From an uncultured Bacilli bacterium (GTDB taxonomy: Bacteria > Bacillota_I > Bacilli_A > Izemoplasmatales > UBA1188), in assembly GCA_905235635.1 (NCBI GenBank), contig CAJOMC010000006.1, positions 24,109-88,108 on the forward strand: a DNA stretch of 64,000 nt. The letters run 5' to 3'. Positions 11,968 through 33,031 of the stretch are shown here, piece by piece; positions within the stretch are counted from its first letter, which is position 1; each line of letters begins with the position of its first letter. The notes beneath the pieces are model-generated. The model did not search any database. It saw nothing but the letters and a program-made list of their open reading frames with translations, and had not been told where the DNA came from. Both the position numbers and the translations under genes were made by a program.

Positions 11968-14900
11968 ATGAGCAAAAAACGTACTAGTTTACTTTTTATT
12001 ATGCCTCTTATTGTACTATCACTTATGGTAGTACTCGCTGGCTGCGGTAGAACAACTACTGTTACACCTACCGCTGAAAAGCCTACAACTACTGTTACTG
12101 AACCTGTAGAAGTAGTTGTTAGTGGTCATGAAACTGCAGTTAAAGTGAAACAAGGGGCTGAGGTTAGTGATAGCGATTTAATCGCTGGTGTTACTGCTAC
12201 TCGTGGAAGCGAAACCCTCACTGTATACGTTCAGGATAAATCAGCTTTAAATACTGCTAACCTAGGAACTGTCGAAATTACACTCGGACTTAAAGATAGT
12301 AGTGGCGCTGTCATAAGCGGCGAAACTTATAAACGTAGCGTTACTGTTGAAGAAAATTTCTATACTGATATTACTATTGGTGGAAATTCAACTTTAACAT
12401 TCTTAACTGATGCTGAAATAGATGATAATGCTTTATTAGCTGGTTTAACAGTTAATGAAGGCTTTACTTTATATGTTAAGGAAAGCGATGCACTCGATTC
12501 ATCTACAGCTGGTGATTACTATGTTACTATCGGTGTAAAGAAAGACGGTAGAGTTGTTAAATCTTCACAACAAACAGAAGTTACAGTTCAAAGAAAGGTT
12601 TCAATTGTAGAACCTGAACCTGAACTCCATATCACATTCTATTTTAATGATACAGAAGTTATTCCAGATGCATACATTGAATTAAATGAAGCAAATGAAA
12701 ATACAATTAAAGCAGCAATTCTTGCTGGTTTAATTGCTAAAGATGATGACTTCAATGAATATCTAGTAAAGATTGTTAATATGGAAGCATTAAACACTGG
12801 TGCTAACGGAAAATATGAAGTTACTCTTGGTGCTTATGATGGAACTGAATTATTAAAAGATAAGGATGGCAATGATTTTGTTGTAACTAGAAATGTTGTT
12901 GTTCAAGCATTCGAAAAACTTACGACTCCAAGTAATTTCTTTATCGCTGGATATGCTGATCAAAAGGGTAGAATCAGATTTGATAATGTACCTGAAGGTG
13001 CAGAATCATTCGTTGTTAAGTTTGTTGCACGTGGTGAAGAAGCAAGTGCTCAAGCTGTATGCGAAACTACAGTTGATCATGCTTATGTTGAAATGGGATT
13101 CTTACCACTTCAAACAGGCGATTATACAATGTATGTTAAAGCACAAGGAACTGGATACTTAGATTCAGAATTCAGTGCTGGATACGATATTACCTATACA
13201 TTATTTGCTGAATTCACTCCTGAAGTAATTGCTGAATGGGCTAATAAAGATCACGGCATCCCATCACTAGTTAATGGTGTTGCTAAGATTGAAACTCCAG
13301 TTGACGGATGGGGTAAGGCAATGAGTGATGAAATTCAAGTTAATTTTAATAAAACTTTAATTCTTGCACTTGATATCAATAAAGTTGATAATGCATTCTT
13401 CGCTACACTATTAATTGATGGTAGTGAAATCTCTATTATTGGCGATACTAGAAGTGGTGATCCAATTATGAGAGAAATTAAAGCTAATGGTTATACTGGA
13501 ACTCAAACTGTTAATATTGTTGTTGGTCCTACAGGTGGAGGTCCTGCTATCTACTTAAATGGTGTTAGAGTATTCTCAATTGAAAAATATGTTGCACCAC
13601 AACAAGACGTTAAATTAAATAATCCAAGTGAATTTGGTATTGGTATTGATGGTTCATCAATTAAGTGGAAAGGCGATAGCTTATGTGAAAGTTATAGCGT
13701 TAAGATAACTAAACGTGGAGAAACAGAAGTTCTAAAAGAAGCAACAACCGACCAATTATCATTCCAAGTTGCAACTCTAGAAGCTGGTGATTATACAATC
13801 ACTGTTAAATGCTTAGGAAATGCACCTTTAACATCAGATTCAGAAGCTGTAAGTTATGATTTCAGTGTTAAAGAATATGCAAACTTCAATGCAGAACAAA
13901 TTGGACAATTTACTGGTAACGGCTGGGAAGCTGATTCAACTGTTCAATATGATTTAGAAACTGGCTACGCAGTAATTAACTTTGACGGACATCGTTCATA
14001 TGGTGCAGTAGGTAATGAAGGCGTCACAGTAGATTTATCTAAGAGACCAGTAGTTATATTTGAAGATCTTAATATCACTGGTGGATGGCTTGCTAGAGCA
14101 TTCTTTGGAACATCTGTAATCTATGCAATGCAAAATGATACATTTGGTGATGCTCATTATGATTATCTAATCAGAAAGATTTGGCTAAATGTTGATGGCA
14201 ACTTAGTTCCTGGCGCAACAGGAGATAAGGATAACCCTCAAGGCGTAGCTCAATATAGATTCCTCCTCGGTTTCGTTGGTGGAAATGATTCAAGAGTAAC
14301 TGTTAAGGGAATGAGATTTGTATATCTACAAGAATATACAGAAGCAGCTCCAGAACAGCTAGATAAACCAAAAGATTTTGCTCCAACAACAAGCGGTAGC
14401 GAAATTGGATGGTCATCAAGTGCTTTATCTCATGAATATGTAGTATATGCATTTGGAACTGAAAACGAAATTCAATCTGGTACAGTAAAGGGTGCTTCAC
14501 TAGAAGTTTCATCTCTCCCTCAAGGAAGATATACATTAAAAGTTAAAGGGTTAGGAGATAATGTTGAATCTCTTGATTCAGAATATGCAACATATGATTT
14601 CGCAGTTAAAGATTTAGCATTCTATTCTGCAGCTGACGTTGCTAATACTGATCTATTTGCTGTAAGCGATGGTAATGTATCAGCAGAATTAAATGGAAAT
14701 AGAGTCACTATTTCTAACAATTCTGATTGGGGTGTTTGGTCACCACTAGTTGGAACTACTATAGATTTATCTATGCGTCCAGTTGTAGTTGTTAAAGGAA
14801 TTACTCTAGAACATGAATGCTGGCTTGCAAGAGCGTATGCCGCAGGCAAGACAATCGTAATGCAAAATGATACTAATGGTACTTGGAATAACGTTACTAT

Positions 14901-16500
14901 TATTAGAAGAACATGGGTTAACGTTGATGGAAACAAGATTGATGCTAACACAGGTAGTGCTAATGATCCTCAAGGTATAACTGAATATAGATTTGGTATC
15001 GGTGTAAATGGCAGTGGTATCGTATCTTACGAATCAATTAGAATTGTTGTCGTTACTGCATATACAGATTGTGGTAATAATCATGATTTAAAAGAAGTTG
15101 CAGAAGTTCCTGCAACTTGTATGACAGAAGGCCACAACCAATATTGGGTTTGTGATAACTGCGGTAAAGTATTTAAAGCAGACAAAACTACAGAAACTAC
15201 TCCTGAAGCAGAAGTTACTGAAGCAAATCCTAATAATCATGGTTCAAGCTTAGAACACGTTAATGGTACTGCAGCACACGGTGTTGCTGGACATAAAGAA
15301 TATTGGCATTGTACAGCTTGCAATAAGTACTTTGAAGATGAAGCAGCAACTAAGTTAATTGCTGATATCGAAGCTTGGAAAGCTGAAAATGGCGCTGGAT
15401 ATGTTAGTGATTCACACTCATGTGAACACACTAATACCATTCCTTCAACTTGCCTTGCAACAGGTACTAAAGAATACTGGCAATGTACTGAATGTCATAA
15501 ATATTTCTCTGATGCTGAATACACTCAAGAAATAGCTGATCTTGATGCTTGGAAAGCAGCTGATGGCTTACTTCCAATAGGTGACCACGCATTAGTAGAA
15601 ATGCCTGCTAAGGCACCTACATGTGAAGAAACTGGGAACAACCAATACTGGACTTGTTCAGTATGTGGAAAAGTCTTTAAAGCTAATAGAACTGATGAAA
15701 CAACAGTAGAAGCAGAACAATTACCAATTAGTGGTCATTCTTATGGAAATCCAGTTTATGAATGGGTATTTGAAGAAGGCGTATGGAAATGCCAAGCTTC
15801 ACGTACATGTAGTGTAAATAGTGAACACGTTGAATTAGAAAAAGTTGCATCTAGTTCTTCTGCAACACTAGAAGCAACAGAATCAACAAAAGGTGAAGTC
15901 ATTTATACTGCAGAATTTACAAATGAAGCATTTGAAACTCAAACAAAAGTGGTTGAAACAACTATGTTAGCTAAACCAGCTAATATGGTTATAAGAGGTG
16001 GTTATGAATCTGGACGTATCATGTTTGATGCTGTTGAAAATGCAGCAGCATACGCAGGAATCTTTGTAGCGCTTGGTGAAGCACCTACAGCTACACGTCT
16101 AGCTTATACAGAATCTTATACAAATGAATTATCACTTAAATCAGTATTTCTCCCTACAGGAAACTATACATTCTATGTAATTGCTGTATCAAATGATACT
16201 CAATATGTTGCATCTTGCAGTGAAGGACTTGATCTTACAATAACTGTAGTTAAATCATGGACTGCACAAGAATTTGTAGACAGCTTTGAAAATGTTGAAC
16301 ATTGTCAAGCAGTAATGGATGGCGAATTTGCAAAAGTTACTCCAATAAATGATAGTTGGGGATATGGTAGATTAAGCCAAGAATTAACAATTGACTTTGC
16401 TAAGAACCCAATTATTAACTTTGATATAGTTTCTCTAACTAATAATTATTGTTCATTCGCGTTTGATGGAACACAAGCGCTCCGATCAATCAAATCCTGA
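11968..16500 (+). CDS. Very large modular surface lipoprotein, 5' part (frameshifted relative to 3' part)
   Basis: Lipobox 'VVLAGC'; FN3-like modules, repeated 'DLSxxP' modules, four CxxC repeats; terminates abruptly inside a module whose continuation is the next ORF. Confidence 0.8.
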   Translation: MSKKRTSLLFIMPLIVLSLMVVLAGCGRTTTVTPTAEKPTTTVTEPVEVVVSGHETAVKVKQGAEVSDSDLIAGVTATRGSETLTVYVQDKSALNTANLGTVEITLGLKDSSGAVISGETYKRSVTVEENFYTDITIGGNSTLTFLTDAEIDDNALLAGLTVNEGFTLYVKESDALDSSTAGDYYVTIGVKKDGRVVKSSQQTEVTVQRKVSIVEPEPELHITFYFNDTEVIPDAYIELNEANENTIKAAILAGLIAKDDDFNEYLVKIVNMEALNTGANGKYEVTLGAYDGTELLKDKDGNDFVVTRNVVVQAFEKLTTPSNFFIAGYADQKGRIRFDNVPEGAESFVVKFVARGEEASAQAVCETTVDHAYVEMGFLPLQTGDYTMYVKAQGTGYLDSEFSAGYDITYTLFAEFTPEVIAEWANKDHGIPSLVNGVAKIETPVDGWGKAMSDEIQVNFNKTLILALDINKVDNAFFATLLIDGSEISIIGDTRSGDPIMREIKANGYTGTQTVNIVVGPTGGGPAIYLNGVRVFSIEKYVAPQQDVKLNNPSEFGIGIDGSSIKWKGDSLCESYSVKITKRGETEVLKEATTDQLSFQVATLEAGDYTITVKCLGNAPLTSDSEAVSYDFSVKEYANFNAEQIGQFTGNGWEADSTVQYDLETGYAVINFDGHRSYGAVGNEGVTVDLSKRPVVIFEDLNITGGWLARAFFGTSVIYAMQNDTFGDAHYDYLIRKIWLNVDGNLVPGATGDKDNPQGVAQYRFLLGFVGGNDSRVTVKGMRFVYLQEYTEAAPEQLDKPKDFAPTTSGSEIGWSSSALSHEYVVYAFGTENEIQSGTVKGASLEVSSLPQGRYTLKVKGLGDNVESLDSEYATYDFAVKDLAFYSAADVANTDLFAVSDGNVSAELNGNRVTISNNSDWGVWSPLVGTTIDLSMRPVVVVKGITLEHECWLARAYAAGKTIVMQNDTNGTWNNVTIIRRTWVNVDGNKIDANTGSANDPQGITEYRFGIGVNGSGIVSYESIRIVVVTAYTDCGNNHDLKEVAEVPATCMTEGHNQYWVCDNCGKVFKADKTTETTPEAEVTEANPNNHGSSLEHVNGTAAHGVAGHKEYWHCTACNKYFEDEAATKLIADIEAWKAENGAGYVSDSHSCEHTNTIPSTCLATGTKEYWQCTECHKYFSDAEYTQEIADLDAWKAADGLLPIGDHALVEMPAKAPTCEETGNNQYWTCSVCGKVFKANRTDETTVEAEQLPISGHSYGNPVYEWVFEEGVWKCQASRTCSVNSEHVELEKVASSSSATLEATESTKGEVIYTAEFTNEAFETQTKVVETTMLAKPANMVIRGGYESGRIMFDAVENAAAYAGIFVALGEAPTATRLAYTESYTNELSLKSVFLPTGNYTFYVIAVSNDTQYVASCSEGLDLTITVVKSWTAQEFVDSFENVEHCQAVMDGEFAKVTPINDSWGYGRLSQELTIDFAKNPIINFDIVSLTNNYCSFAFDGTQALRSIKS

Positions 16501-17425
16501 TGTCTTCCCAACAAGTATGTTTAGAGGAAATGTTCAAGGAAACTCATATTCTGGTGTAAATGTTATGAGAGTTGGATTTGGTGCGACCGGTGCTAGTGGA
16601 TGTTCAGTTTACCTAAGAAATGCAGCTGTATACTACTTAAGTGAATATGTTGAACCATCTGAAGAAAAGAATCCTGTTCAAACAGCAACAGATATGGCTT
16701 TAACTTCAGACAAGATGAATATTACTTGGACTACTGATGCTATAAGCTTTGAATATACAGTATATGTTAAAGATACAGAAACAGTAGTTGAAAGTGGTAC
16801 TAAGAACGGAACTAAATATAGTCCTGCACATTTAGCTGCCGGTGAATATACTATTAAAGTTAAATGCTTAGGTGATGGCGAAACCACACTTGATGCTACT
16901 GAATATGGAACATTTAATTTCAAAGTTACAGATTACTATTCTTATACTGCAGCTGATATTGCTACTTGGGCAAAAGTTGATGGCGATACAGTAGGTGCAT
17001 CTTTATCACAAGATGGCACTAAAGCTGTTATTACAGCACAAGGTTGGGGTATTGTTGCTCCACAAGCACCTAATACATTAAATAGTGAATCATCTAAGTT
17101 TACCGGAAGTGCTTGCCCAATATTAGTAATTAAGGGAATTAATGTTCAATCTGGTCGTTGGTGCTTAAGAGCATATGTTAGAGGTAGTGTAAATGGTTAC
17201 TCAACAACTATGGCTGTAATGCACAATGATGATGAAAAATCTTGTGAATTATTAGTTCACCCAGCATGGCAAAACGTTGATGGAAATAAGATAGATTCAT
17301 TCAGTGGTGATAAGACTAACCCTGGTGGATATATTCGTGATTACATGATTGGATTTGGCGCAACAAGTGATGGTACTGTTGAAGTTGAATCAATCCGTAT
17401 TATTGGTATTTCCGCAATAAAATAG
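16463..17425 (+). pseudogene. 3' continuation of the 11968 surface protein in a different frame
   Basis: SDQSNPDVFPTSMFRGNVQGNSYSGVNVMRVGFGATG…YYLSEYVEP completes the module truncated at 16500; no credible RBS or signal peptide of its own. Confidence 0.75.
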
Positions 17426-17476: not shown

Positions 17477-20400
17477 ATGACTATGTTTAAAAAAATAACT
17501 ACATGCTTATTAGCTATAATAGAATCAGTCTTTGTTTTTGTTGTTATCTCGAACACAAATAAGGTAAATGCAGCAATCAATATGTCAATACCAAGAATGG
17601 ATAGCCTTCCAGGCGTAGCTACTGATTATGAGTATAAAGACTGGAAAGAAACAACTATAAACTATATTAACTATATACTTGATGAGTCATCTATATTTAA
17701 TGGGATGGATGCAAAAGGAAACTCACTCGCAGAAAAGCCTATTAAGATAGTTCAATCTAATGCTGCTAAAAATATAGACGCTTTCTTTAATGAAAGCGGC
17801 AATAAGTTTTGGGGTATTAAATCATATCTAGGACTATCAGGTGGTGGAGTTGAAGGAATTAACTGTATAGCCGCAATATTATCAGGTGCTCAGGTTGGGC
17901 TTGATATGACTAACTATTCAGTTAACGGTCAAGAACCACATAATTATGTTCGTGATATGGTTGCCTTCTATCAAGCAGAAAACGGACAAAATGTCGTATT
18001 AAATAATGCATCTGCATCAACAGGCGGATCTTTTTGGTATGAACTACTTCCAGGATGTTTATTTGTAAACTTATATGAATATTATCCAGAAGAAACATAT
18101 CTAAAAGAAATCATCGCAGAAATGTCTAAAAAATGGATGAAATGTGTTGATGATTTAGGTGGAGCTAACTGCGACTTTAGTAGTGGATATGGTTATAGTA
18201 TTGCAAAAGGTGTTCAAACATATGGTAACTGGAGAGAACCAGATGCTGCTGCAGGCCTAGCTTATATCCTTTATGGTGGATATAAAGCAACCGAAAATGA
18301 TCCAGTATATGGTGAATATAGTAGTCAATTTTTAACAAGAGCTATGTGGTGTATGGACTTCCTAGATAGACTTGAGTATTCACCATTTTATGAAGTTCTA
18401 ACATTCCTCGCCCCTCCAATAGCATCTAAACTTAATGCCTTCCATAATAAAAATTATGATATCGCAAAATATATTAATTGGACTTTAGATGGTTCAAGTG
18501 CTGTCCGTGGTGGATGGGGTATGATAAATGAATCATGGGGTGGGAAACACACCTATGGTTTAATGGGTAGTTTAACTGATGGCGGCGGATATGCGTTCGC
18601 TATGAATACATTTGATGCAGCTTGGGGTTTCATTCCTACTGTTAAATACGATACTCGTTTCGCTAATTCTATTGGTAAATGGATATTAAACGTATCAAAC
18701 TCATCACGTTATTACTATGGAAAATATAGTAGCGATGATGGTGAATATATCACTAACACCTACGGTGAAAAAAGTTATACTCACTGGAGCGGATACTATC
18801 AATCTTCTAACTATTTCGCACCAACTGATCCTGAGGCATCATTTATAGCCTATGAGGGCTTACGTAAATACCAAAAAGGATTCAACTGGAATGCGGATGG
18901 TAATAGTAAATCTAATTTCACTAACTATAATCACTCACCTTACGCAAGTTGTGATAGTTTTACCTATGCTTGGGGTGGAAACACTGATTATGGTATGTAT
19001 GGCTCAAGCCATGTCGGTATGTTTGGCGCAATAATAGACAAAACAAACGTATCACAAATATTAAAGATCGATTTAAATGCGCTAGATTATTTTGGAGAAG
19101 AAACATATCCAACATATATGTTCTATAATCCTTATAATCAAGCCAAAGAAATAGAATACAAAAAAGAAAAAGCATCAAATAGATTATATGATGCGATTAA
19201 TAAAAAATGGTTAACTACTACTGGTAGTGGAGAAACTGTAAAATTCTATGCACCAGCAGGTGTATCAACAATAGTTGTTGAACTACCAGCTGATGGTGAT
19301 ATTGAAACAAGTGGTGGTGTTTATTATTTAGATGGTAAATATGTAACATCATCAAGAAGTAGCCTTAATATGACTGTTGAACACTACGATGATAACTCTT
19401 GGAGTGAGATTAGTAGTGGTGCTGTTATAAGAAACAAACTTAGAATCTATCTAGATGCTCAAGTTGATTCATCAACTACATTAAAAGAAATTAATGTAAC
19501 AATTAACGGGAAAGAAGTTTATAAGACTACGTCTATCCCAACATCTTATATTGAAATAGATGTTGAAAATAATGATTTAATTAGAAGTGGTAATGGTTCA
19601 ATTATCGCTAATATGAAATTAAATAATGGTGCTATTGAAAAACGTTCTATAGGAATTACGGTCGCTAAATCAAGGCTTGAGACCGCAGTTTCGTTTGATA
19701 GTCATGATAAACAAACAGAATCATTTACTAAAACAATAGATGTATGGAATAATGGTCCAAATGCAGTGCTTTTACCGTTTGATTGTTCTGTTGAAACGGT
19801 AGATAGTGGTACAAAGATCACCGCATCAAGCGTTTTATCTTATGGTTCATCATTCACTGAATACTTTAGAATTGACTTATCAAGGAATCCAATTCTTGAG
19901 TTAGATATTAAAGAAACAACTGCAAGTTGGGCTTTAAAAGTATTCATAGAAGATGGCGATGCAACTGGTTACTATATGATAAGAGATATTGATACAACAG
20001 GTAAACAAAGTGTTAATATCATTGAACAAATCTTAATAGAAGATCGTTCATTTGATTTAACTGGAATACATAATCTAGCTGTATGGATTCTTCCTGCGGG
20101 TAAGCCTGGATGTAGTGTTACTGTGAGTGATATCTATATTTATTACTTATATGATTCGCCAATAGTAAATGAACCAAATCAATATGAATGGGGCTTTAAC
20201 TTTAACCCTGGATACATTAATATTTGGGATAGTTTTGAAGATAACCTCCCTGATGCAGGCGCAAACTTAGAATATACAAGTAATGCGACCGAAAAGTTGT
20301 CTATTCAAAACGGGAAGGTGAGTGCTTATATCACAAGTCCATACGTATATGCGGATATTGCCAAAAACCCAGTAATAAGTGTTATGCCATATTCAGTTAG

Positions 20401-22894
20401 TGGCACATATTCAATAGGTGTCATATTTGAAGGTGATCCAACAATTTATGAACTTGTATCTGATATTCCAAACGCTAAAGAACAAACCATTTCAATAGCG
20501 CAAACAATGAAAGCTCTATATCCTCAAAAGGTAAAGAGCGGAATGAATAACATTAAAATAGTTATTATTTTAGATGAAGCAAATTCAAATGTTGAACTAT
20601 CGCTTGTTAAAACATATTATCAACTAACGAGTTGGGGTGTTACAACTTCTGGAATAATGTTTGAAGAATGGTCAGGTGCTGTAAATGACCTTAATAAAGG
20701 TACAATAACACCTACAGGTAACGCTCAAGAGGATTATAGAATTACTAATACTGATAACGAATCTAATAGTACTAGTAGTCGTGGAGCCGCTGGTAAATTT
20801 GAACTTAATTTAGATAGAAATCCTGAACTATCAATTTCAATAGCGGATGTTAAAGGAAAGTGGTCTGTAAGTGTTGTATTCTTTCAAGATTTAAGCAAAC
20901 GTTATGAAATAATCCCACAAAATACATCTAAGAATGTTAACAAGAAAGTTAACTTATTAGATGCAATATTAGCGATTGATCCATCATTTAGTTTATCTGG
21001 AGTTCAATCTATATACCTCCAAGTAGAGGTAGTTGGTGGTGAAAATTACGCTGATATTCGTAAGGTTCAAACATCATATAATAAAGTTGCACCTAAGTTT
21101 GAAGATGGAGCATCTTTATCAGGAAGAAGTATTACAAGTTGGGATGCTGATGCATCATTAAATAGTTTATCGTATCTTAAAGGTGGTGTTGCGGTGTTAG
21201 AAGAAAATCTTAAGGGGTCATCTATCATCACAACTCCTCAAGTTAAACTAACTACATCTAAAAATCCACAATTAATAATATCTAGTGAAATAAAAGGAAC
21301 TCTAAGAGTATATGCAAATATCCAAGGAATAAGATATGAATTATCACCTAAGAATGGATATACCTCATCAGGTGTAATTAGTATAGATGTTAATGAAAGA
21401 CTAGCTTTAGCTGGATTTAATACAACCAATTTCAATCAAAATGTAACATTTAGCTTTGCATCAGATGGAGCTAATAGTAAAGTATCATTTGATTATATTA
21501 AGTTCATAAACAAACTCGCATCAGTTGGTAAAATCAATGTAAATGGTAATGAATTATCATGGGATAGAGTACCTGGTGCTGAATACTATAGTTTATCTAT
21601 TTACGACTCAAATGATAATAACGTATTAAGTATAAATAACTATAAATCTAATCTATATGATGTATCAGGTCTACTTTTACCTGATGGTATATATAGAATA
21701 GTTGTATCTGCAGGAAGCTCTAAATCGCTTCCAAGTGATACACAACAACAAGGCTTCAAACAAGGTAATGTTGAAAGCATTCCACTAGGCAAAATCGAAA
21801 GCATTTCATATGATGGAATGTATATTAGATTTAATAGTGTTGATAATGCCCAAGGATATAAAGTTACCCTTAAAGATGTAGATACAAATGAAATTGTATT
21901 AGAAAATCAAATAATTACTACTAATTATCTTGATTTATCTAGTATAGGTTTATCTGGTTTTAACTATTCACTAACCATAAACGCTCAAGGCGATGATATT
22001 GCATATTTAAGTTCTGAAGCTAAGACATTTGCCTTCGCAACACCAACAGAAGCACGTTATACTCCAAAAGTATTATCTACCGCAACACCAGTTAATAATG
22101 ATGCATTTATTACTGTTGAAAGTAATGGATTAGCATTACTTCAACTCCCTACTGGTGGTAACTGGGGTGAAGTTGGTACATCAGCATTCTATTTAAATAT
22201 GAGTGCTAACCCAATATGGTACGTAGATTTTGGCACAGTAACTCATGGTTACTATATGAGAATGTATATAGATGGTACTCTATACTACATCACAGATAAC
22301 GTATTCTCAAGTGAAACTTGTTGGTTTGATTTAGTAGGTATTCTTAAAGAAAGGGGAGAAGCACCATCATCAGCTTTAAGTGGTAATCACTTAGTAAGAT
22401 TCTGCTTCGGTGTAACAGGTGGCACTGCAGATGTGGTAAATCCAACTGTTGAAATAGTTGAATCAAGAGTATTTACTATGTCAAATGGTTATATTCAACC
22501 AATAATTGGAGAATTAAATTCTCCAGTACTAAGAGTAGATGACAAAAGTGTTGTTTGGGATAGTGTTGCCAACGCTCAACAGTATGTTATTACTATTTTC
22601 AATGAATTTGGTTTATTATATAGTGAGACAGTATCATCAACAAGCACTGATTTATCATTCTTAGTTCAACCAGATACATATACAGTTAATGTATTCTCAA
22701 GGGGCTCAAATTACTATGATAGTGAATTAAGTTCAATTGAGTATGTTGTAACTGAAAATATTGAACCAGCACCTCCTAAAAAAGGTTGTCGTTCAGAGAT
22801 TGGTTTAAACCATTCATTATATGTAATCTTATTATTATCATTAATAACAATTCCTGTATTTACTACATTAAAAAAACATTCAAGAGGAGAATAA
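17477..22894 (+). CDS. Giant secreted, C-terminally anchored modular protein; helical-rich N-terminal region of unknown, possibly glycan-active function
   Basis: Signal peptide MFKKITTCLLAIIESVFVFVVISNTNKVNA; Trp/Tyr/Gly-rich ~500-aa N-terminal domain; repeated modules; C-terminus PPKKGCRSEIGLNHSLYVILLLSLITIPVFTTLKKHSRGE; start moved from 17435 to ATG 17477. Confidence 0.8.
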   Translation: MTMFKKITTCLLAIIESVFVFVVISNTNKVNAAINMSIPRMDSLPGVATDYEYKDWKETTINYINYILDESSIFNGMDAKGNSLAEKPIKIVQSNAAKNIDAFFNESGNKFWGIKSYLGLSGGGVEGINCIAAILSGAQVGLDMTNYSVNGQEPHNYVRDMVAFYQAENGQNVVLNNASASTGGSFWYELLPGCLFVNLYEYYPEETYLKEIIAEMSKKWMKCVDDLGGANCDFSSGYGYSIAKGVQTYGNWREPDAAAGLAYILYGGYKATENDPVYGEYSSQFLTRAMWCMDFLDRLEYSPFYEVLTFLAPPIASKLNAFHNKNYDIAKYINWTLDGSSAVRGGWGMINESWGGKHTYGLMGSLTDGGGYAFAMNTFDAAWGFIPTVKYDTRFANSIGKWILNVSNSSRYYYGKYSSDDGEYITNTYGEKSYTHWSGYYQSSNYFAPTDPEASFIAYEGLRKYQKGFNWNADGNSKSNFTNYNHSPYASCDSFTYAWGGNTDYGMYGSSHVGMFGAIIDKTNVSQILKIDLNALDYFGEETYPTYMFYNPYNQAKEIEYKKEKASNRLYDAINKKWLTTTGSGETVKFYAPAGVSTIVVELPADGDIETSGGVYYLDGKYVTSSRSSLNMTVEHYDDNSWSEISSGAVIRNKLRIYLDAQVDSSTTLKEINVTINGKEVYKTTSIPTSYIEIDVENNDLIRSGNGSIIANMKLNNGAIEKRSIGITVAKSRLETAVSFDSHDKQTESFTKTIDVWNNGPNAVLLPFDCSVETVDSGTKITASSVLSYGSSFTEYFRIDLSRNPILELDIKETTASWALKVFIEDGDATGYYMIRDIDTTGKQSVNIIEQILIEDRSFDLTGIHNLAVWILPAGKPGCSVTVSDIYIYYLYDSPIVNEPNQYEWGFNFNPGYINIWDSFEDNLPDAGANLEYTSNATEKLSIQNGKVSAYITSPYVYADIAKNPVISVMPYSVSGTYSIGVIFEGDPTIYELVSDIPNAKEQTISIAQTMKALYPQKVKSGMNNIKIVIILDEANSNVELSLVKTYYQLTSWGVTTSGIMFEEWSGAVNDLNKGTITPTGNAQEDYRITNTDNESNSTSSRGAAGKFELNLDRNPELSISIADVKGKWSVSVVFFQDLSKRYEIIPQNTSKNVNKKVNLLDAILAIDPSFSLSGVQSIYLQVEVVGGENYADIRKVQTSYNKVAPKFEDGASLSGRSITSWDADASLNSLSYLKGGVAVLEENLKGSSIITTPQVKLTTSKNPQLIISSEIKGTLRVYANIQGIRYELSPKNGYTSSGVISIDVNERLALAGFNTTNFNQNVTFSFASDGANSKVSFDYIKFINKLASVGKINVNGNELSWDRVPGAEYYSLSIYDSNDNNVLSINNYKSNLYDVSGLLLPDGIYRIVVSAGSSKSLPSDTQQQGFKQGNVESIPLGKIESISYDGMYIRFNSVDNAQGYKVTLKDVDTNEIVLENQIITTNYLDLSSIGLSGFNYSLTINAQGDDIAYLSSEAKTFAFATPTEARYTPKVLSTATPVNNDAFITVESNGLALLQLPTGGNWGEVGTSAFYLNMSANPIWYVDFGTVTHGYYMRMYIDGTLYYITDNVFSSETCWFDLVGILKERGEAPSSALSGNHLVRFCFGVTGGTADVVNPTVEIVESRVFTMSNGYIQPIIGELNSPVLRVDDKSVVWDSVANAQQYVITIFNEFGLLYSETVSSTSTDLSFLVQPDTYTVNVFSRGSNYYDSELSSIEYVVTENIEPAPPKKGCRSEIGLNHSLYVILLLSLITIPVFTTLKKHSRGE

Positions 22895-22896
22895 TT

Positions 22897-23862
22897 ATGG
22901 CCTCACACAAAGCATTAACAAGTATCAAAGAACAATTTGAAATCTTTTCTAAAACAAAAAATGTTCATGATTCTAAACTAGAAGAATTTGAGATTGACTC
23001 AAATCTTGACTGCTATAACCCATCAATACCTTTTGTTATTGATGAAACTGAATATATTTTGTGTCGTACCCAAGAAAGAAAAGGTGAATATTCTAAGGTA
23101 TATTGTTTTAAAAAAGAAGATAGCAAATGGGTAATTGAGAAGAGTTTTAAACCTCTTCCTTTAGAGGACCCATCTATCGCCTTTATCAATGATAAAATAG
23201 TTGTTTCTGGTGTAAATGTCACATTTGGAGATAACATAAATACTTTTACTGAATGGAAAACTGATTTCTATGTTGGAGACAGCATTCAAAATTTAGAATA
23301 TTTTACATCTGGCCCAGATCATATGAAAGATATTAGATTAGTTCAATTAAAAAATTCTAAAATTGGTATTTTCACAAGACCATTAGGTAAAAATGTGGCA
23401 GATGGACATAAAGCTAAGATAGGTTTTACTATTGTTGATAGAATTGAAGACATCAATAAAGATGTTATAAATAATGCACCACTACTTGATGATTTCTTCT
23501 TGAAAGAAGAATGGGGTGGGTGCAATTCAGCATATCTTCTTAAAAACGGTCTAATTGGTGTAATTGGACATAAAAGTTATTATAGTAATGAAGATGGTAA
23601 AGACCACCTTCATTACTATGGGACATATTTCGTTATTAATCCAAAAACATATAAAACAACGGATATGAATATTATTATTAGTCGTGATTGTTTTCCTTAC
23701 TTTGAACCAAGGGAAGAAAGACTAACTGATATCACATTTACATCAGGAATAGTTAGAAACTCTGATGGGACAGCTAAAATTTACGCTGGATTAAGCGATA
23801 GCGCTATTGGAAGCGCAATTATAAAGGATCCATTTATTGAATATGAAAAACTCAAAGTCTAA
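22897..23862 (+). CDS. DUF1861-like protein (beta-propeller glycosidase/phosphorylase-like)
   Basis: Pattern 'YNPSIPFVIDETEYILCRTQERKGEYS…LEDPSIAFINDKIVVSGVNVTF…GPDHMKDIRLVQLKNSKIGIFTRPLGK…KIGFTIVD…EEWGGCNSAYLLKNGLIGVIGHKSY'; start moved to ATG 22897. Confidence 0.75.
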   Translation: MASHKALTSIKEQFEIFSKTKNVHDSKLEEFEIDSNLDCYNPSIPFVIDETEYILCRTQERKGEYSKVYCFKKEDSKWVIEKSFKPLPLEDPSIAFINDKIVVSGVNVTFGDNINTFTEWKTDFYVGDSIQNLEYFTSGPDHMKDIRLVQLKNSKIGIFTRPLGKNVADGHKAKIGFTIVDRIEDINKDVINNAPLLDDFFLKEEWGGCNSAYLLKNGLIGVIGHKSYYSNEDGKDHLHYYGTYFVINPKTYKTTDMNIIISRDCFPYFEPREERLTDITFTSGIVRNSDGTAKIYAGLSDSAIGSAIIKDPFIEYEKLKV

Positions 23863-24787
23863 GATTCCTTTTAAGCAAAGACTTGCGAAAAAAGAACTAA
23901 TTAAAAATGGTGGTAGATACTTACTTCTTTTACCGGCTATAGTTTTTATAGTTATTTTCGCATATCTTCCAATGATTGGAATTATTATTGCTTTTGAGGA
24001 TTATGACCCTGCAAGAGGTATTCTGGGCAGTAAATTTGTGGGACTTGAGAATTTTAAATTTTTCTTTAGTGGTTCTAAATGGTTAGAAGTAACGGTTAAC
24101 ACTTTATATCTAAATATTATATTTATCATTACTGGTACAATCGCATCACTAATTATTGCGATTGTATTAAGTGAATTAAACAAAAAGATATTCTTAAAAG
24201 TATCTCAAACATTTATGACTCTCCCTAACTTTGTGAGTTGGGCGTCAATAGCTTTATTCTCAGTTGCATTCCTTTCAGCTGATGGAATAATCAATAGTTT
24301 AATTGTAAAAATGGGTGGTAATGCAATCAGTTTTAGTACTGATCCTTCCGTATGGAGATTTACCTTTGTGGTAATTAGAATTTGGAAAGGTGCTGGTTGG
24401 GGTTCTATTATATATTTAGCTTCAATCACGGGCATTTCACCAGAACTATATGAGGCGGCAAAGATCGATGGTGCAAGTAGACTTCAGTGCATCTTTAGAA
24501 TTACCTTACCTCTTTTAAAAAGCGTAGTCATTATTCAATTATTACTGAGTATTGGAAATGTATTCCGCGGAGACTTCGGAATGATTTATCCGTTTATAGG
24601 TGATAACGCTCTCCTTTATTCAACAACTGATGTTATTGATACATATGTGTATAGAGCGGTTAGAACTCAAAGTGATTTTAGTAAAACAATGGCTGTGGGA
24701 CTTTATCAATCAATCATGGGCCTTATTATGGTATTTGTCGCAAACGGACTTACTAAGAGATATGCCCCTGAATCGTCACTATTCTAA
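23843..24787 (+). CDS. Sugar ABC transporter permease (LplB-like)
   Basis: 'LLLLPAIVFIVIFAYLPMIGIIIAFEDYDPARGI' and EAA-loop 'LYEAAKIDGASRLQCIFRITLPLLK'. Confidence 0.9.
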   Translation: MKNSKSKIPFKQRLAKKELIKNGGRYLLLLPAIVFIVIFAYLPMIGIIIAFEDYDPARGILGSKFVGLENFKFFFSGSKWLEVTVNTLYLNIIFIITGTIASLIIAIVLSELNKKIFLKVSQTFMTLPNFVSWASIALFSVAFLSADGIINSLIVKMGGNAISFSTDPSVWRFTFVVIRIWKGAGWGSIIYLASITGISPELYEAAKIDGASRLQCIFRITLPLLKSVVIIQLLLSIGNVFRGDFGMIYPFIGDNALLYSTTDVIDTYVYRAVRTQSDFSKTMAVGLYQSIMGLIMVFVANGLTKRYAPESSLF

Positions 24788-24788
24788 T

Positions 24789-25691
24789 ATGAAAACGAAG
24801 AAAAATAGTATAAAGAAAACAAAAGGAGATATTGCACTTGAAGTCTTATTCTATATATTTATCACAATATTCTCGCTTTTATGTTTGTACCCTTTCTATC
24901 AAGTATTAATTAGTTCATTTACTGATGAAAACACTCTTGTGAGAGAAGGATATAAACTATTCCCATCTAAGTTATCACTTGACGCTTACAAAACAATTTT
25001 CTCTAATAATGTAATACCTCGTGCTTACTTAGTAACTATATTTATTACCGTTGTAGGTACAGTACTTACTCTTATTGTAACGGGTCTTGCGGCTTACGCA
25101 TTATCCGGAAAGAAGCTTAAATACCGTGGTGGTATTAGTTTATTCTTTTATTTCACTTGTCTATTCTCGGGTGGACTTGTGGCATATTATTTGCTGATCA
25201 CAAACTATCTTCATTTAGATAATTCAATTTGGGTGTATATCATTCCTGCAATGTTTAATGTTTGGAATATGTTCCTACTTAGAAACTTCTTTAATGAAAT
25301 ACCTATGTCACTCATTGAATCAGCGAAGATGGATGGGGCAAATGAACTTACGATTGCTTTTAGAATCGTTCTTCCATTATCTCTACCTGCGCTTGCGACT
25401 ATTGGGCTTTTCACAGCGCTTGGATTCTGGAATGAATGGATGGCAAGTTCTTTATATATTGACGACGAAAAATTATATACACTTCAATACATTATAGTAC
25501 GTATGGTTAATAGTATATCTGCGGCCCAAAACGTTGGACAGGCAGGACTCCCTCCTGGAGTTATATCTGTGCCCGCAAATACAATAAGACTCGCAACTGC
25601 GATGGTCACTGTTGGTCCAATAATACTACTTTATCCATTCCTTCAAAAGTACTTTGTTAAAGGCTTACGTGTTGGTGGTGTTAAAGAATAA
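24789..25691 (+). CDS. Sugar ABC transporter permease (LplC/YtcP-like)
   Basis: 'LIESAKMDGANELTIAFRIVLPLSLPALATIGLF'; C-term 'QKYFVKGLRVGGVKE'; start moved from 24600 to 24789. Confidence 0.9.
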   Translation: MKTKKNSIKKTKGDIALEVLFYIFITIFSLLCLYPFYQVLISSFTDENTLVREGYKLFPSKLSLDAYKTIFSNNVIPRAYLVTIFITVVGTVLTLIVTGLAAYALSGKKLKYRGGISLFFYFTCLFSGGLVAYYLLITNYLHLDNSIWVYIIPAMFNVWNMFLLRNFFNEIPMSLIESAKMDGANELTIAFRIVLPLSLPALATIGLFTALGFWNEWMASSLYIDDEKLYTLQYIIVRMVNSISAAQNVGQAGLPPGVISVPANTIRLATAMVTVGPIILLYPFLQKYFVKGLRVGGVKE

Positions 25692-25705: not shown

Positions 25706-27475
25706 ATGAAAAATATATTTAAGAAAACATTTATATTAGTTGTTACATTATTAATGGTTTTATGCCTTGCATCATGTAATAAAAAGACTGATGAGTATTC
25801 TAATAAAATTAAATTTTATCTATGGAATGCTGATGGCCTTATGCCTACAGGATTTGAAGATGTATTAAAAGAATACAATGAAAAATATGCTAAGGAAAAT
25901 GGTGGTCTTGAACTCGAATTTAAATTTGAGGCAACACAAGATACCTATAAGCAAAATCTAAATCTATATTTCAGTGCTCAAAAGAATACCTATGATGTAG
26001 TCTTTGATGCACAGTGGATTCTTCTTGAAAGATTCTCTCAAACTGGATATTATTATGATTTATCTAGCTATTTTAACAATGATAATTATCCAGGTCTTAA
26101 GAAAGCATTCTCTGAAGAATTTATAAATAATAATAAATATAATAATGGTGTATATGGTATTCCAATCACTGAATCATTTGGTGATATTGCGGTAACATTT
26201 ATTCGTAAAGATTGGAGAGTACTATGTGCAAGTGATACTATTTGGGAAAAACCAGAAGATTTAATAAACAACCCAACAAAGGCATCTGATTTAGCCGATA
26301 GAATCGATAATTATAATGAATATGAATACTATATTTATTGGGTTAAAGCTCATGCGGGGGAAGGCTCTATTCCATCAAACGTAGTACCTATTATTTGTAA
26401 TAATGATGGTTCATATAGTGCATATGAAATTATAAGTGGCAGAAACGCTCGTTCAGTTCTTCCAAAAGATTATTATAATAATGGAATTAAAACTGATATT
26501 TTAATCAATTCAGGTGGCTTAAGTGGGCAAGTTTATGTTGATGAAAGATCAGGCGAAGCTGTTGCAGCTGATGTAAGTAATCTTAATCCATCCGCAACTA
26601 ATGGTAGAAATTCATTCCCTCAACAATTCCAAAGTGAAGATACTTCATGGCAAGAAAACTATGAAATAGTCAGAAGATGGAATCAAGCTGGTATGATGGG
26701 TGATGTATCAAATGAAACTGAAGCATATGCTAAATTCAAGCTTGGTCTTGCGGGATCAGTTATTCAAAGTATCGATAACTTCAATGAATATGAAGCTGCG
26801 ATTAAAACTCAAGATAGTAATGCAGAACTTGAAATATTCATTCATGATACAGATATTAGAAACAAATCAGAAGGCGTTCAAGCAACAGATTATCGTGCTT
26901 GGAATTATCTAGCTATTCCAAAGAACGTTCCAGAAGCTAAAGTTGAAAAGATAATGAAGTTCTTCGATTGGTTGTTTGAATCAAGAGAACATCATGATTT
27001 ATTCCAATACGGTATTAAAGGTGTTAACTGGGATGAAGCAAAAGATGATAATGGTAATTATATAGAAAATACAGTTACTACACTTGGTTTTGAACCTTAT
27101 ACTTTTACAGCATATTTACTAACATGGAATCCAACCTACATTAGACTTCCTTACGCAAGTGATCCTAAAGTACTTGAATATAGTTCATATATGTATAGCA
27201 TTGAACGTTATTCACCACAATTATATTCTGGATTTGTCTTCTCTACAGTTGGACGTTCATCTGAGGTTACAACTGCATTAAACAACCCTGATATCGCATC
27301 CGCAAAGAGCGATATTACTGCATATCAACTAGGACTTGTGAATAATCCTGTTAGCTCATGGCAAGGATATCTCGATAGTCTAAGAAATAATACTTCACTT
27401 CAAAATTCACTAACAATAATTCAAAGAGACCTAATTGCACAATTCAATGAATACCTTGAGAAAAACACTAACTAA
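25706..27475 (+). CDS. Extracellular solute-binding lipoprotein (LplA/DUF3502-like)
   Basis: Lipobox 'VLCLASC'; adjacent to LplB/LplC permeases; binding-protein architecture. Confidence 0.85.
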   Translation: MKNIFKKTFILVVTLLMVLCLASCNKKTDEYSNKIKFYLWNADGLMPTGFEDVLKEYNEKYAKENGGLELEFKFEATQDTYKQNLNLYFSAQKNTYDVVFDAQWILLERFSQTGYYYDLSSYFNNDNYPGLKKAFSEEFINNNKYNNGVYGIPITESFGDIAVTFIRKDWRVLCASDTIWEKPEDLINNPTKASDLADRIDNYNEYEYYIYWVKAHAGEGSIPSNVVPIICNNDGSYSAYEIISGRNARSVLPKDYYNNGIKTDILINSGGLSGQVYVDERSGEAVAADVSNLNPSATNGRNSFPQQFQSEDTSWQENYEIVRRWNQAGMMGDVSNETEAYAKFKLGLAGSVIQSIDNFNEYEAAIKTQDSNAELEIFIHDTDIRNKSEGVQATDYRAWNYLAIPKNVPEAKVEKIMKFFDWLFESREHHDLFQYGIKGVNWDEAKDDNGNYIENTVTTLGFEPYTFTAYLLTWNPTYIRLPYASDPKVLEYSSYMYSIERYSPQLYSGFVFSTVGRSSEVTTALNNPDIASAKSDITAYQLGLVNNPVSSWQGYLDSLRNNTSLQNSLTIIQRDLIAQFNEYLEKNTN

Positions 27476-28931: not shown

Positions 28932-29794
28932 GTATATTTAAAGATCCAAAGCATCAAGGTCCACTTCCAAAGAATAGGTTTGAACAATTTTTTGATATTG
29001 TTCAGTTTAATTATCGTTCTTTAATGCTTTTAAGTTTTTTAACATTTTTATTCTTTATTCCTCTAATTATATGGATGTATATATCCACAATTACAGATAG
29101 TGCACTATACGCCGAAATCTTAAGTTATGGAGATGATGTACCGCTTGAATTATATAATGAGTTAAAAACTCAAACACTTATTAACGCAATTATATATGTT
29201 CCATTAATCTCTATCACATTCATTGGTTTAAGTGGAATGATCGGAACATTTAGAAAGTTCTTTTATAGAGATATAGTTGAACTACCAGCTAATTATTTTG
29301 AGTGTGTAAAAAAGAACTGGTTATCATCTCTTTTAATCGGATTATTCTACTCTATGGCAATATCATCTATCACATTTAGTAATCTATTCTTTAATGAATC
29401 AGTAATCTGGAACATTATAGGTATTGTGTTAATAGTGTTTGTGAGTATATTCTTCCTGTTTGTCCTATCTCTTAATGTTTATTATACTGAAAGTATAGGA
29501 TCACTATTATTCAATTCGTTTATTTTATTAATAGTACGTCTACCTCAAAACTTATTAAGTATTGTAGTTTTAGTTCTTCCAGTATTGTTTGTTGTATTCT
29601 TACCTAAAATACTAGGAATAACCCTAATGATTATTGTATATACGATAATTTGGTTAGCTTTTGGAATATTAGCATTTGAGGCGAATGCTATAGGTGCATT
29701 TGATAAATATATTAATCAAAAATCTTTTCCTGACATTTATAAAAAAGGATTGGTAAAAAAAGATGGCAAAGAAAACTCAGAACATAGTTTATAG
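28925..29794 (+). CDS. YesL-like (DUF624) integral membrane protein
   Basis: Multi-TM, within lpl-type sugar locus. Confidence 0.6.
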   Translation: MLSIFKDPKHQGPLPKNRFEQFFDIVQFNYRSLMLLSFLTFLFFIPLIIWMYISTITDSALYAEILSYGDDVPLELYNELKTQTLINAIIYVPLISITFIGLSGMIGTFRKFFYRDIVELPANYFECVKKNWLSSLLIGLFYSMAISSITFSNLFFNESVIWNIIGIVLIVFVSIFFLFVLSLNVYYTESIGSLLFNSFILLIVRLPQNLLSIVVLVLPVLFVVFLPKILGITLMIIVYTIIWLAFGILAFEANAIGAFDKYINQKSFPDIYKKGLVKKDGKENSEHSL

Positions 29795-30653
29795 AGAAAA
29801 TATTATAACTCAATCAGTAAATGTAGTTTGTAAGTTTATGAATATGGGAAGACAAGATAGTAAAAATGGTTACTATTACAAGCCTCATATTCATGAGGAG
29901 TTTGAAATACTATATATTATTTCAGGAACGCTTACTCCAAAAATAAATGGAGTAGATGTTACTGTAAAAGAAGGAGAAACATACTTCCTTCAACCAGGTC
30001 AAACACATGAGGAATTTTCAGATAGTAACTTTGTGTCTTTCTATTATATAAAATGTAACTTCTATAGAATTGATGGTAAGGTTGCATATCTAACTAATAA
30101 TATTCAGGATCAGATTATTAATTCTAATAAAAAAGAATTCAAAAAATTATTTGAAGATATGTTTAAAGAGGTTCAAAACAAAAAGTTGGGGTACTGGCAA
30201 ATTCTTGAATCCACCCTTGTGAAAATGTTTTGTAATCTTTTAAGATGTAATACTAGTTTAAACTCAACAAATTATGAGGCATATGGTATTCAAGAATATA
30301 AACAAGAATATAGTAATCCAACTATTAATCTTGTAATAGAGTATATGAAAGCTAATGAACATAGAATCTTATCGATGGAAGAATTAGCTCATAGCGCATC
30401 TGTATCGACCTCACATCTTCATTATTTATTTAAAAAATACCTTAATATGTCACCAATAAAATATATGATGACGCTAAAGATGGATGGAGTTAAGTTAATG
30501 CTTGTCCAAACAGATCTTCCAACTAAATCTATCGCACAATTTTTTGGATTTGAAGATTATTCATATTTTTGTAAGGTATTCAAAAGGTATTGTGATGTTA
30601 CACCTTTAGAATACAAAACTCAATTTACTAAAGGTATAAAAGATGAAATTTGA
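29763..30653 (+). CDS. AraC-family transcriptional regulator with N-terminal cupin
   Basis: 'HIHEEFEILYIISGTLTPKINGVDVTVKEGETYFLQPGQTHE' cupin; C-terminal two HTH '…SMEELAHSASVSTSHLHYLFKKYLNMSPIKYMM…FGFEDYSYFCKVFKRYCDVTPLEYK'. Confidence 0.95.
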   Translation: MAKKTQNIVYRENIITQSVNVVCKFMNMGRQDSKNGYYYKPHIHEEFEILYIISGTLTPKINGVDVTVKEGETYFLQPGQTHEEFSDSNFVSFYYIKCNFYRIDGKVAYLTNNIQDQIINSNKKEFKKLFEDMFKEVQNKKLGYWQILESTLVKMFCNLLRCNTSLNSTNYEAYGIQEYKQEYSNPTINLVIEYMKANEHRILSMEELAHSASVSTSHLHYLFKKYLNMSPIKYMMTLKMDGVKLMLVQTDLPTKSIAQFFGFEDYSYFCKVFKRYCDVTPLEYKTQFTKGIKDEI

Positions 30654-31707
30654 AAGATGTAAATATAACCCTATAATAAAAGCTAGTAATTTTATACCTT
30701 GTAATGACAAATTAAAGGTATTATTAAGTTTTAATCCGGGAGTTACTACATATAAAGGTGATGTAGTATTAATTGCACGTGTTGCGGTACTTGCAAAAGA
30801 AAACAAAGAAAATACCATTGGTGTTCCAATATATAATCCTAATACTGGTGATATCGATATAAAAGAATTTGATAAAAAAGATAGTAGTTGTGATTTTAGT
30901 GATCCAAGACTTATAAGAAGGGGTAATGATTTATATTTAACAACACTATCATATTTTGCCCTTCTCACAAGCAAAGATGGTATTCATTTTAAAATAAAAA
31001 ACAAAGCCTTTATGATTGGCGATAATGATTATGAGTCGTTTGGAATTGAAGACCCAAGAATCACTAAGATAAACGATTATTACTACATAAATTATAGTGG
31101 TGTATCAAAAGATGGCATATGTACTATGCTAGCGAGAACTAAAGACTTTGAATCAGTTGAAAAACTAGGTCCTATCTTTATGCCAGATAATAAAGATGTA
31201 GTTATTTTCCCAAAAAAGATTAATAAAAAATATGTCGCAATAAGTAGACCTGAGTCTGCGTATTTTAAAAAGCCTAATATGTGGATGTCTTATTCAAAAG
31301 ACTTACTTTCATGGGGAGAACATAGAATATTTTTAAGGTTAAGAGAAAACCACTTTGATTCATCTAGACTAGGCGCAAGCTGTGTACCATTTGTGGTTAA
31401 AGAAGGATGGCTTCTTATATATCATGGTGCAACAAAAAATAATGTATATACTTTAGGAGCATGTTTGCTTGATAAAAATGATCCGAGTATAGTCCTTAAA
31501 AGGACAAAAGAACCTATAATGGTTCCTCTAACTGATTATGAAAGAAACGGGTTTATGCCTAACGTTGTTTTCTCTTGTGGATGCATTAAAAAAGGCAATA
31601 ACCTTTACATATATTATGGAGCGTGTGATGAATCTATTTGTCTTGCGTCTACCAAAATTAGTAATATTTTAGATTTATTAAATAATGAGGAACAATGTGA
31701 AAAATAA
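30643..31707 (+). CDS. GH130-family beta-mannoside phosphorylase-like protein
   Basis: 'FNPGVTTYKGDVVLIARV', 'SDPRL', 'GIEDPRITKIND', 'LGPIFMPDNKDVVIFPKKI', 'GWLLIYHGA'. Confidence 0.85.
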   Translation: MKFERCKYNPIIKASNFIPCNDKLKVLLSFNPGVTTYKGDVVLIARVAVLAKENKENTIGVPIYNPNTGDIDIKEFDKKDSSCDFSDPRLIRRGNDLYLTTLSYFALLTSKDGIHFKIKNKAFMIGDNDYESFGIEDPRITKINDYYYINYSGVSKDGICTMLARTKDFESVEKLGPIFMPDNKDVVIFPKKINKKYVAISRPESAYFKKPNMWMSYSKDLLSWGEHRIFLRLRENHFDSSRLGASCVPFVVKEGWLLIYHGATKNNVYTLGACLLDKNDPSIVLKRTKEPIMVPLTDYERNGFMPNVVFSCGCIKKGNNLYIYYGACDESICLASTKISNILDLLNNEEQCEK

Positions 31708-33031
31708 ATTAGTAATATTTTTTTTCATTTTATTTCTTATATTACTAACATCTTGTGAAAACGTTAGTGTTGTCACAAATATAGTGACTAAAATAAGCGA
31801 AGAAGATGTTGTATCAAATGTTAGTAAAAATATTGTTGAAACACCTGTTATAAGTGTGAGCGAAGATGGAATACTTAGTTCAATGAACTCAACTGGCTCT
31901 ACAAGTTATGAAGTTGAACTAATTTATGAAGACGAAGAATTAAAAACATCATTCGTTATATCTAGTCTTCCATATGAGATAGAAACAGATAGACCTGGTG
32001 TGTATTCTATTAGAATACGCGCTCTTCCAAAAGGCGAGAGTGAAGTTAAATCTAATTGGTCTAATTATTGTCAGTTTTGTTCATCTAAAAGAGATGAAAT
32101 TAGCAGACCACAAAACCTTAAAGTCGAAAACAATGTAATCTCTTTCGGAAAGAATAAAAATGCTAGTTCATATGAAATTAAAATCAATGATGAAAGTATA
32201 ATTTCTGAAACTAATAAATATGAGTATAATTTTATCCCTGGTATTGAATATAAGATTAAAGTTAAAGCTTGTGTTAATGAGAATCTCTATACAGTAGGTT
32301 CTCCTTGGACCGATGAAATAATTTATTCGTATACAGTTGAACTCGCTAAGCCAATTGATTTGCTGTTTAAAGAAGGAATACTAACATGGAACGCTGAAAG
32401 AGCAATCAATGGTTTTACTGTCTGTTGTAAAAACAATGAAACAAATGAAGAAATAGAATATATTGTTAAAGATAGTTCTTTTTCTATTGCAACTTTAAAT
32501 AATGGTACATATACAATCAAAGTTAAGACAAATGGCATTGGCACAAATAGCGATTCAGAATACTCAATAGAAAAGAAATTTAGTGTATCTCATGCATACC
32601 ACTGGTCATCTTCAGATATAGTAAGTAATTTCAGTGGTTGGAACAACGCTACTATTAGACAGAATGATGGATATGCTGAAGTAGTTAGCAATGCTGGATG
32701 GGGCGGAATTATCTCTCCTTATATTACGGTAGATTATAAAAATAACCCATATCTAATTATTGATTATAAGAGGATAAATTATGGATATCTTGGTAAATAC
32801 ATTACTCCAACAAATCAGAATGGATATTACTTTAAAGGTGATACTTTATTTGAAGGTGAAGATGTAATTCAAGTGTATCAAATGGATACATATGTATACG
32901 GAAAGATCCCAAATACTGTTTCCGAAAACTTCAGTATAATCGCTGGATTTACCGGTTCCCCAACATCTGGGTATAATACAGTTCTTGAAATAAGAAGCAT
33001 AGATGTTGTTTATATTAATGAGATTAAGTAG
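31685..33031 (+). CDS. Secreted lipoprotein with FN3-like modules and one copy of the island's shared 'DxxxNP' module
   Basis: Lipobox 'LLTSC'; 'LAKPIDLLFKEGILTWNAERAINGFTVCC…'; 'ITVDYKNNPYLIIDYKRI'. Confidence 0.75.
   Translation: MRNNVKNKLVIFFFILFLILLTSCENVSVVTNIVTKISEEDVVSNVSKNIVETPVISVSEDGILSSMNSTGSTSYEVELIYEDEELKTSFVISSLPYEIETDRPGVYSIRIRALPKGESEVKSNWSNYCQFCSSKRDEISRPQNLKVENNVISFGKNKNASSYEIKINDESIISETNKYEYNFIPGIEYKIKVKACVNENLYTVGSPWTDEIIYSYTVELAKPIDLLFKEGILTWNAERAINGFTVCCKNNETNEEIEYIVKDSSFSIATLNNGTYTIKVKTNGIGTNSDSEYSIEKKFSVSHAYHWSSSDIVSNFSGWNNATIRQNDGYAEVVSNAGWGGIISPYITVDYKNNPYLIIDYKRINYGYLGKYITPTNQNGYYFKGDTLFEGEDVIQVYQMDTYVYGKIPNTVSENFSIIAGFTGSPTSGYNTVLEIRSIDVVYINEIK

Follow-up and report, generated by a model that had tools for sequence, protein, structure and literature searches.

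We analysed a window of 64,000 nucleotides (nt) from the genome of an uncultured, gut-type Bacilli bacterium (GTDB Izemoplasmatales; UBA1188; assembly GCA_905235635.1, contig CAJOMC010000006.1, positions 24,109-88,108), and focus here on a protein module that is repeated 11 times in three neighbouring secreted proteins. With modest confidence, we read this repeat as capturing the substrate for a secreted system that holds and cuts β-1,2-mannan and feeds an ATP-binding cassette (ABC) importer and cytoplasmic phosphorolysis. More specifically, modules in two surface proteins and behind an enzyme would hold the β-1,2-mannan chain, and cleavage would fall to this enzyme, a helical toroid with which the protein encoded at 17435 begins. 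The importer, as judged from its protein families, would take up the oligosaccharides, and cytoplasmic DUF1861/GT108-like and GH130 enzymes would, like their close relatives, phosphorolyse them to mannose-1-phosphate. The computation shows that the copies are homologous, how they are predicted to fold, that module and enzyme pair almost exclusively with each other, and that they are associated with genes for GH130 enzymes of β-1,2 type and for GT108-like enzymes; binding by the module, cleavage by the enzyme and the β-1,2 linkage we infer. The initial annotation, which singled out the repeat, overlooked the N-terminal enzyme of the 17435 protein and did not see that the GH130/DUF1861 pair points to β-1,2-mannan.

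The initial annotation had proposed about 11 motif copies in three neighbouring secreted proteins, and they were located as claimed (Table 1). Each copy spans about 125-165 amino acids (aa); ten are intact and one (A4) is split by a frameshift in the first carrier, which is broken over two open reading frames (ORFs; 11968-16500 and 16463-17425). These ORFs had been treated as a unit, rightly as it appears: they are most likely one gene, broken in the assembly or in the organism, giving three proteins in total. In relatives L084-L089, the protein matching 11968/16463 is encoded as a single ORF. Homology was assessed by leave-one-out profiles, in which nine intact copies score the tenth and up to 200 shuffles per copy serve as control. 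The ten intact copies scored 12-63 bits and the best shuffles 4.6-12.8 bits, with no shuffle reaching the score of its own copy in any of the ten cases, which upholds the copies as one family. A search with the full profile revealed no further copy in the six frames of the window, and a profile search none elsewhere in the whole 1.37-Mb genome; the module is absent from six genomes of the same genus. Pairwise identity to copy A2 is 13-34%, so the copies are deeply diverged homologues rather than products of recent duplication.

For structure prediction, an alignment of 69 module copies was assembled from the window and 80 related loci, the latter retrieved using six enzyme sequences. One copy (B1) was modelled and the remaining copies were assigned the same fold by homology. 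The model is an almost all-β sandwich (predicted local distance difference test (pLDDT) 90.7; predicted template modelling (pTM) score 0.83). The 'NP' core that first drew attention to the repeat is the strand-turn-strand centre of this domain: D814 (numbering of the 17435 protein, copy B1) ends a strand and is D or N in 66 of 69 copies, P819 lies in the turn and is kept in 61 of 68, and position 832, after the second core strand, is aromatic in 90%. W/Y-G positions are also conserved. The top Foldseek match was the carbohydrate-binding module (CBM) family CBM86 (E 1.3e-4, template modelling (TM) score up to 0.57), followed by CBM61, CBM16, CBM15, CBM30 and CBM11, with β-sandwich matches from glycoside hydrolase (GH) families GH12, GH11 and GH50 interspersed; CBM86, CBM61, CBM16 and CBM30 come nearest, with TM scores of about 0.5-0.6. 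No family in Pfam or NCBIfam matched the module, and searches of the PDB with single sequences or profiles returned nothing; the only Pfam signal was a stray CBM_11 match (E 0.033) in one of the 69 copies. Accordingly, the hidden Markov model (HMM) built from the copies matched no described family across its full length, and the suggestion of a β-sandwich module of carbohydrate-binding type without a named family is borne out. The module shares the β-sandwich fold and the size (about 130-175 aa) of CBM86 (PDB 6sgf, a xylan-binding module of Roseburia intestinalis) and of CBM61/16/15/30/11 and, like them, is attached to or lies beside a secreted glycan-active protein. It differs from them in sequence (identity at most about 18%, no HMM match in Pfam or PDB), in its enzyme partner and in its predicted ligand. 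It thus has the fold of a CBM family but not the sequence similarity, and probably represents, on the strength of the model, an unnamed CBM family with a β-sandwich of CBM type. Since the comparison was made with Pfam, NCBIfam and PDB, the module or enzyme family may already bear a CAZy number.

The module is tied closely to one enzyme. Module and enzyme were searched independently in 395 genomes of the class Bacilli, one per species and including the genome under study. Among the 394 others, the module was present in 17, the enzyme in 17 and both in 16 (hypergeometric p 2e-26, a value that treats genomes as independent, yet 5 of the 16 are from one genus). In all 16, module and enzyme are fused or encoded by neighbouring genes. 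A second pass with wider profiles left this picture unchanged. In six further whole genomes (1.9-6.9 Mb) the module is confined to the enzyme locus, and among 175 genomes of one Clostridial family both were found in the same single genome. From the enzyme side, 77 loci were found without use of the module, 34 of which carry it, either as a separate gene of about 155-340 aa just upstream (24 loci) or fused (10 loci).

Two other explanations of the repeat were weighed. According to the first, the module is a structural part of the enzyme, a spacer or oligomerisation domain that does not bind sugar. Such a role would suit the very low sequence conservation between copies and the fact that the conserved positions are in part core residues, and the separate lipoprotein that adjoins the enzyme in single-module loci would also fit an assembly subunit. 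We nevertheless consider it improbable given the CBM fold, the conservation of the W/Y-G and aromatic 832 positions, the distribution of 11 copies over three proteins of which just one carries the enzyme, and locus L081, where modules and a GH130 occur with no relative of the enzyme in the fetched 20 kb. L081 (6400-8790, 8799-10769) also has a SASA esterase, its GH130 is the one most similar to that of the window (51%), and in place of the enzyme it has an uncharacterised 796-aa protein, which was considered as an enzyme relative and rejected as unrelated. The second explanation is adhesion: the modules would fasten the cell to glycans of a host or of its neighbours, and nutrition would come second. 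Near-exclusive pairing with one enzyme and with genes for sugar uptake and phosphorolysis speaks against adhesion, as do carriers that are not tied to an animal host (Paenibacillus and digester bins, according to record titles); long multi-module surface proteins with fibronectin type III (FN3) and immunoglobulin (Ig) spacers are what an adhesin would look like, and even so we regard this explanation as very unlikely.

The partner enzyme occupies the front of the 17435 protein. In an 867-aa model (pLDDT 89.6), a helical toroid comes first, then β domains, an Ig-like linker and module B1. In the catalytic-type domain, all 67 relatives share E140, E320, E474 and D507, and 64 retain E268. No Pfam or NCBIfam family matched this domain in the window protein or in 66 relatives, and a single-sequence search of the PDB found no match. 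Profile search of the PDB gave weak matches to a GH76 α-mannanase and to cellobiose 2-epimerase, both (α/α)6 barrels, which were lost when a larger alignment was used. The order of a helical toroid, β domains and CBMs is also that of (α/α)6-barrel glycosidases (GH76, GH9 xanthanase 6fhn, GH15 glucodextranase 1ug9), from which the enzyme differs in having no family-level sequence match and poor whole-domain TM-scores. We propose the domain as a candidate new glycoside hydrolase family, most likely of endo-β-1,2-mannanases. Its closest relative (51% identity) comes from a bin of Kiritimatiellaeota (L083), which do not belong to Bacillota, and the stretch fetched there holds no modules; this relationship suggests horizontal transfer. 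Relatives also occur in bins labelled Hodarchaeota and Thaumarchaeota (L109, L111, L119), where the stretch fetched contains neither the module nor GH130 nor DUF1861.

The predicted substrate comes from the company that module and enzyme keep. The DUF1861 gene directly follows the enzyme gene in the window, and a GH130 gene lies further downstream. Known GH130 enzymes include the β-1,2-mannobiose phosphorylase Lin0857 (5b0p) and Uhgb_MS. Among solved proteins, the window GH130 is nearest to Lin0857, along its full length, and its four best-matching distinct PDB proteins are β-1,2-mannoside enzymes. For the GH130 of Lachnoclostridium phytofermentans (L132), Lin0857 is again the closest match, and its top named matches in the PDB are likewise enzymes for β-1,2-mannosides. 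To our knowledge, neither this enzyme nor this module has been paired with Lin0857. Along their whole length, the DUF1861 proteins of both the window and L. phytofermentans match the Leishmania MPT mannogen phosphorylase/transferases (6q4x, 6q50). The latter make up family GT108, and their substrate mannogen is a β-1,2-mannan (PMC8950772). The DUF1861 proteins differ from them in being bacterial and placed within sugar-uptake operons, and their phosphorylase/transferase activity is predicted from sequence. To compare loci, we used those of at least 12 kb that had been fetched by the enzyme alone (27 with the module, 23 without), detecting GH130 and DUF1861 by profiles grown from the window proteins rather than by Pfam models. 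GH130 and/or DUF1861 was present in 25 of the 27 module loci and 8 of the 23 module-free loci, and DUF1861 alone in 24/27 and 1/23 (p 1e-9). In module loci, the GH130s mostly share 37-51% identity with that of the window, and the neighbours listed include, as read from their sequences, ABC permeases, solute-binding proteins and LacI-type regulators. This association is the reason why we read the substrate as β-1,2-mannan. Mannan had been named as the glycan before, which was close; the GH130/DUF1861 evidence points to the β-1,2-linked polymer rather than plant β-1,4-mannan. A β-1,2-mannan salvage cluster in Thermoanaerobacter (Teth514_1788/1789; PMC4264767) likewise combines an ABC importer with β-1,2-mannoside phosphorylases; it differs in having two GH130 genes, a GH5 and a mannose-1-phosphate guanylyltransferase, and its description names no such module or enzyme.

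The same genes could serve another polymer that bears β-1,2-mannose, such as yeast mannan, acetylated mannan or a bacterial O-antigen. The repeat would still be a CBM and the enzyme would still cut a glycan, with the backbone being cut, for example, by an α-mannanase activity and only the released caps being β-1,2-mannosides. Candida α-mannan is indeed capped by β-1,2-mannose (PMC4599007), one weak profile match of the enzyme was to the GH76 α-1,6-mannanase 6u4z (E 9e-4 over 37 positions), and three esterases are encoded in the island. We consider this possible, at a fairly low probability: no GH76, GH92 or GH38 was found among the island proteins scanned, some genes being unscanned and the contig continuing to the left, and most single-module loci are small, consisting of enzyme, module, ABC importer, GH130 and DUF1861.

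Several observations weigh against the proposed β-1,2-mannan system. The similarity of B1 to named CBMs is at the level of fold (TM about 0.4-0.6, mostly 8-18% identity), and Foldseek with the 867-aa enzyme model, in which the β domains dominate, gave no clear whole-domain match in the PDB. The window GH130 reaches 409 bits on NF050092, below the curated equivalog cut-off of 550, in which it differs from Lin0857. The module is lacking in 43 of the 77 enzyme loci, mostly outside Bacillota. In the more distant fused group L075-L080, E140 is not kept and neither GH130 nor DUF1861 is present in the fetched stretch; these loci encode the enzyme with two modules and a C-terminal membrane anchor, L075-L077 and L079 adjoin glycolytic housekeeping genes, and the enzymes may act on the cell's own surface polymer. 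Finally, the three island esterases (8282, 33040, 34977) suit an O-acetylated glycan and suggest that the island substrate is acylated, and we found no citable acetylation of β-1,2-mannan.

Four architectures were distinguished among the loci. In the first, a gene for a lone module (about 180 aa, usually carrying a lipobox) immediately precedes that of the enzyme; in the second, a downstream protein of 600-700 aa has the module near its N-terminus; in the third, two modules are fused C-terminally to the enzyme (Paenibacillus L090-L092; L075-L080). The fourth, found in the window, combines four or five fused modules with a multi-module protein encoded upstream (L084, L086-L089; L085 is truncated where its contig ends). 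L132 encodes a single-module lipoprotein at 6922-7515. In a tree of modules, with long branches and some placements unsure, window copies B1, B2, B4 and B5 cluster with the same array positions from Clostridia and an Acholeplasmatales bin, indicating that the array is old and that its positions diverged separately. A2, A3 and A5 cluster together and may be later local duplicates. Recent amplification of the repeat within the island was rejected on this position-wise clustering. The initial picture of a module amplified across one glycan island thus gives way to one that is found in many genomes, almost always with one enzyme. A broader proposal, which we put forward tentatively as a serious though not a favoured possibility, is that the catalytic domain founds a glycoside hydrolase family of endo-β-1,2-mannanases in many bacterial phyla and some archaeal bins, and that the repeat founds a β-1,2-mannan-specific CBM family, the module having started as a one-copy lipoprotein partner and, evolving together with the enzyme, reached fused arrays of five.

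Table 1. Module copies, candidate enzyme and other island genes in the window (LOO, score in the leave-one-out test)
Feature	Coordinates	Strand	Evidence
Module A1	13207..13593	+	LOO 25.9 bits, shuffle maximum 5.6
Module A2	13879..14340	+	LOO 63.3 bits
Module A3	14617..15066	+	LOO 39.9 bits
Module A4, split by frameshift near 16460-16480	16252..16651	+	Half matches in two frames
Module A5	16931..17422	+	LOO 28.8 bits
Module B1 (folded as 19736-20170)	19787..20161	+	LOO 47.7 bits; structure model
Module B2	20216..20638	+	LOO 27.4 bits
Module B3	20654..21094	+	LOO 28.8 bits
Module B4, most divergent	21131..21526	+	LOO 12.2 bits, shuffle maximum 5.9
Module B5	22082..22495	+	LOO 28.9 bits
Module C1	32600..33028	+	LOO 31.3 bits
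Multidomain secreted protein: catalytic-type domain, Ig-like linker, five modules, FN3-like units, C-terminal transmembrane segment	17435..22894	+	
Candidate catalytic domain, ~590 aa: helical toroid, then a part rich in β-sheet	17588..19357	+	Profile; model; conservation
DUF1861 protein, GT108-like (predicted β-1,2-mannan phosphorylase/transferase type)	22786..23862	+	Pfam PF08950 300 bits; Leishmania MPT-2 6q4x E 1.8e-51
GH130, Lin0857-like (predicted β-1,2-mannobiose phosphorylase)	30643..31707	+	5b0p E 1.3e-102; NCBIfam NF050092
Secreted lipoprotein-like protein, Ig/FN3-type spacers, modules A1-A4	11968..16500	+	ORF list; Pfam spacers; module profile
ORF with rest of A4 and module A5, most likely continuation of 11968	16463..17425	+	
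ABC sugar permease	23837..24787	+	PF00528
ABC sugar permease, true start probably inside	24600..25691	+	PF00528
Putative extracellular solute-binding lipoprotein	25706..27475	+	Sequence and position after permeases; no Pfam match
AraC-type regulator	29763..30653	+	PF12833, PF02311
Secreted FN3-like lipoprotein ending in module C1	31685..33031	+	
CE2-type esterase	8282..9805	+	PF17996
SASA acetylesterase	33040..34011	+	PF03629
CE2-type esterase	34977..35957	+	PF17996

The FN3-like units described between the modules were confirmed in places only: in 11968, Y_Y_Y (PF07495, 34.1 bits) and Ig_J (PF24421, 32.8 bits) scored above the Pfam cut-off, and relative L084 has an fn3 match of 56 bits. Other genes of the window include one for a large secreted protein (3724-8196) in which four Bact_surface_Ig-like domains and a weak CBM_4_9 occur alongside a different repeat of about 170 aa, present twice (about aa 1080-1400) and unrelated to the module by profile. 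A DUF5696 protein (326-1822, 353 bits) begins before the left edge of the window, its ORF on the contig being 786 aa long, and further upstream lie a 696-aa secreted protein and permease-like ORFs. Inside the sugar operon, 27435-28931 encodes an RCC1-repeat (β-propeller) protein with a signal and a C-terminal membrane segment, and a RhuM-family gene (Pfam Virulence_RhuM, 10057-11121) between island genes is possibly a mobile insertion. By its GC content the island does not stand out as foreign, and promoter and terminator scans gave nothing useful.

Bacterial β-1,2-mannoside phosphorylases (GH130 and GT108 relatives) are already known. β-1,2-mannan itself is the reserve mannogen of Leishmania and a surface antigen of Candida (PMC3290622, PMC4599007). 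We found no secreted enzyme or binding module for capturing or cutting extracellular β-1,2-mannan described in the open-access literature, and likewise no endo-β-1,2-mannanase, the numeral linkage '1,2' being unusable as a query. The module and the 17435 enzyme are probably new parts of a β-1,2-mannan utilisation system. A testable pair with a named substrate turns an unfamiliar repeat into a direct biochemical question and, if the proposed reading is true, enzyme and module together would be tools to detect and cut β-1,2-mannan.

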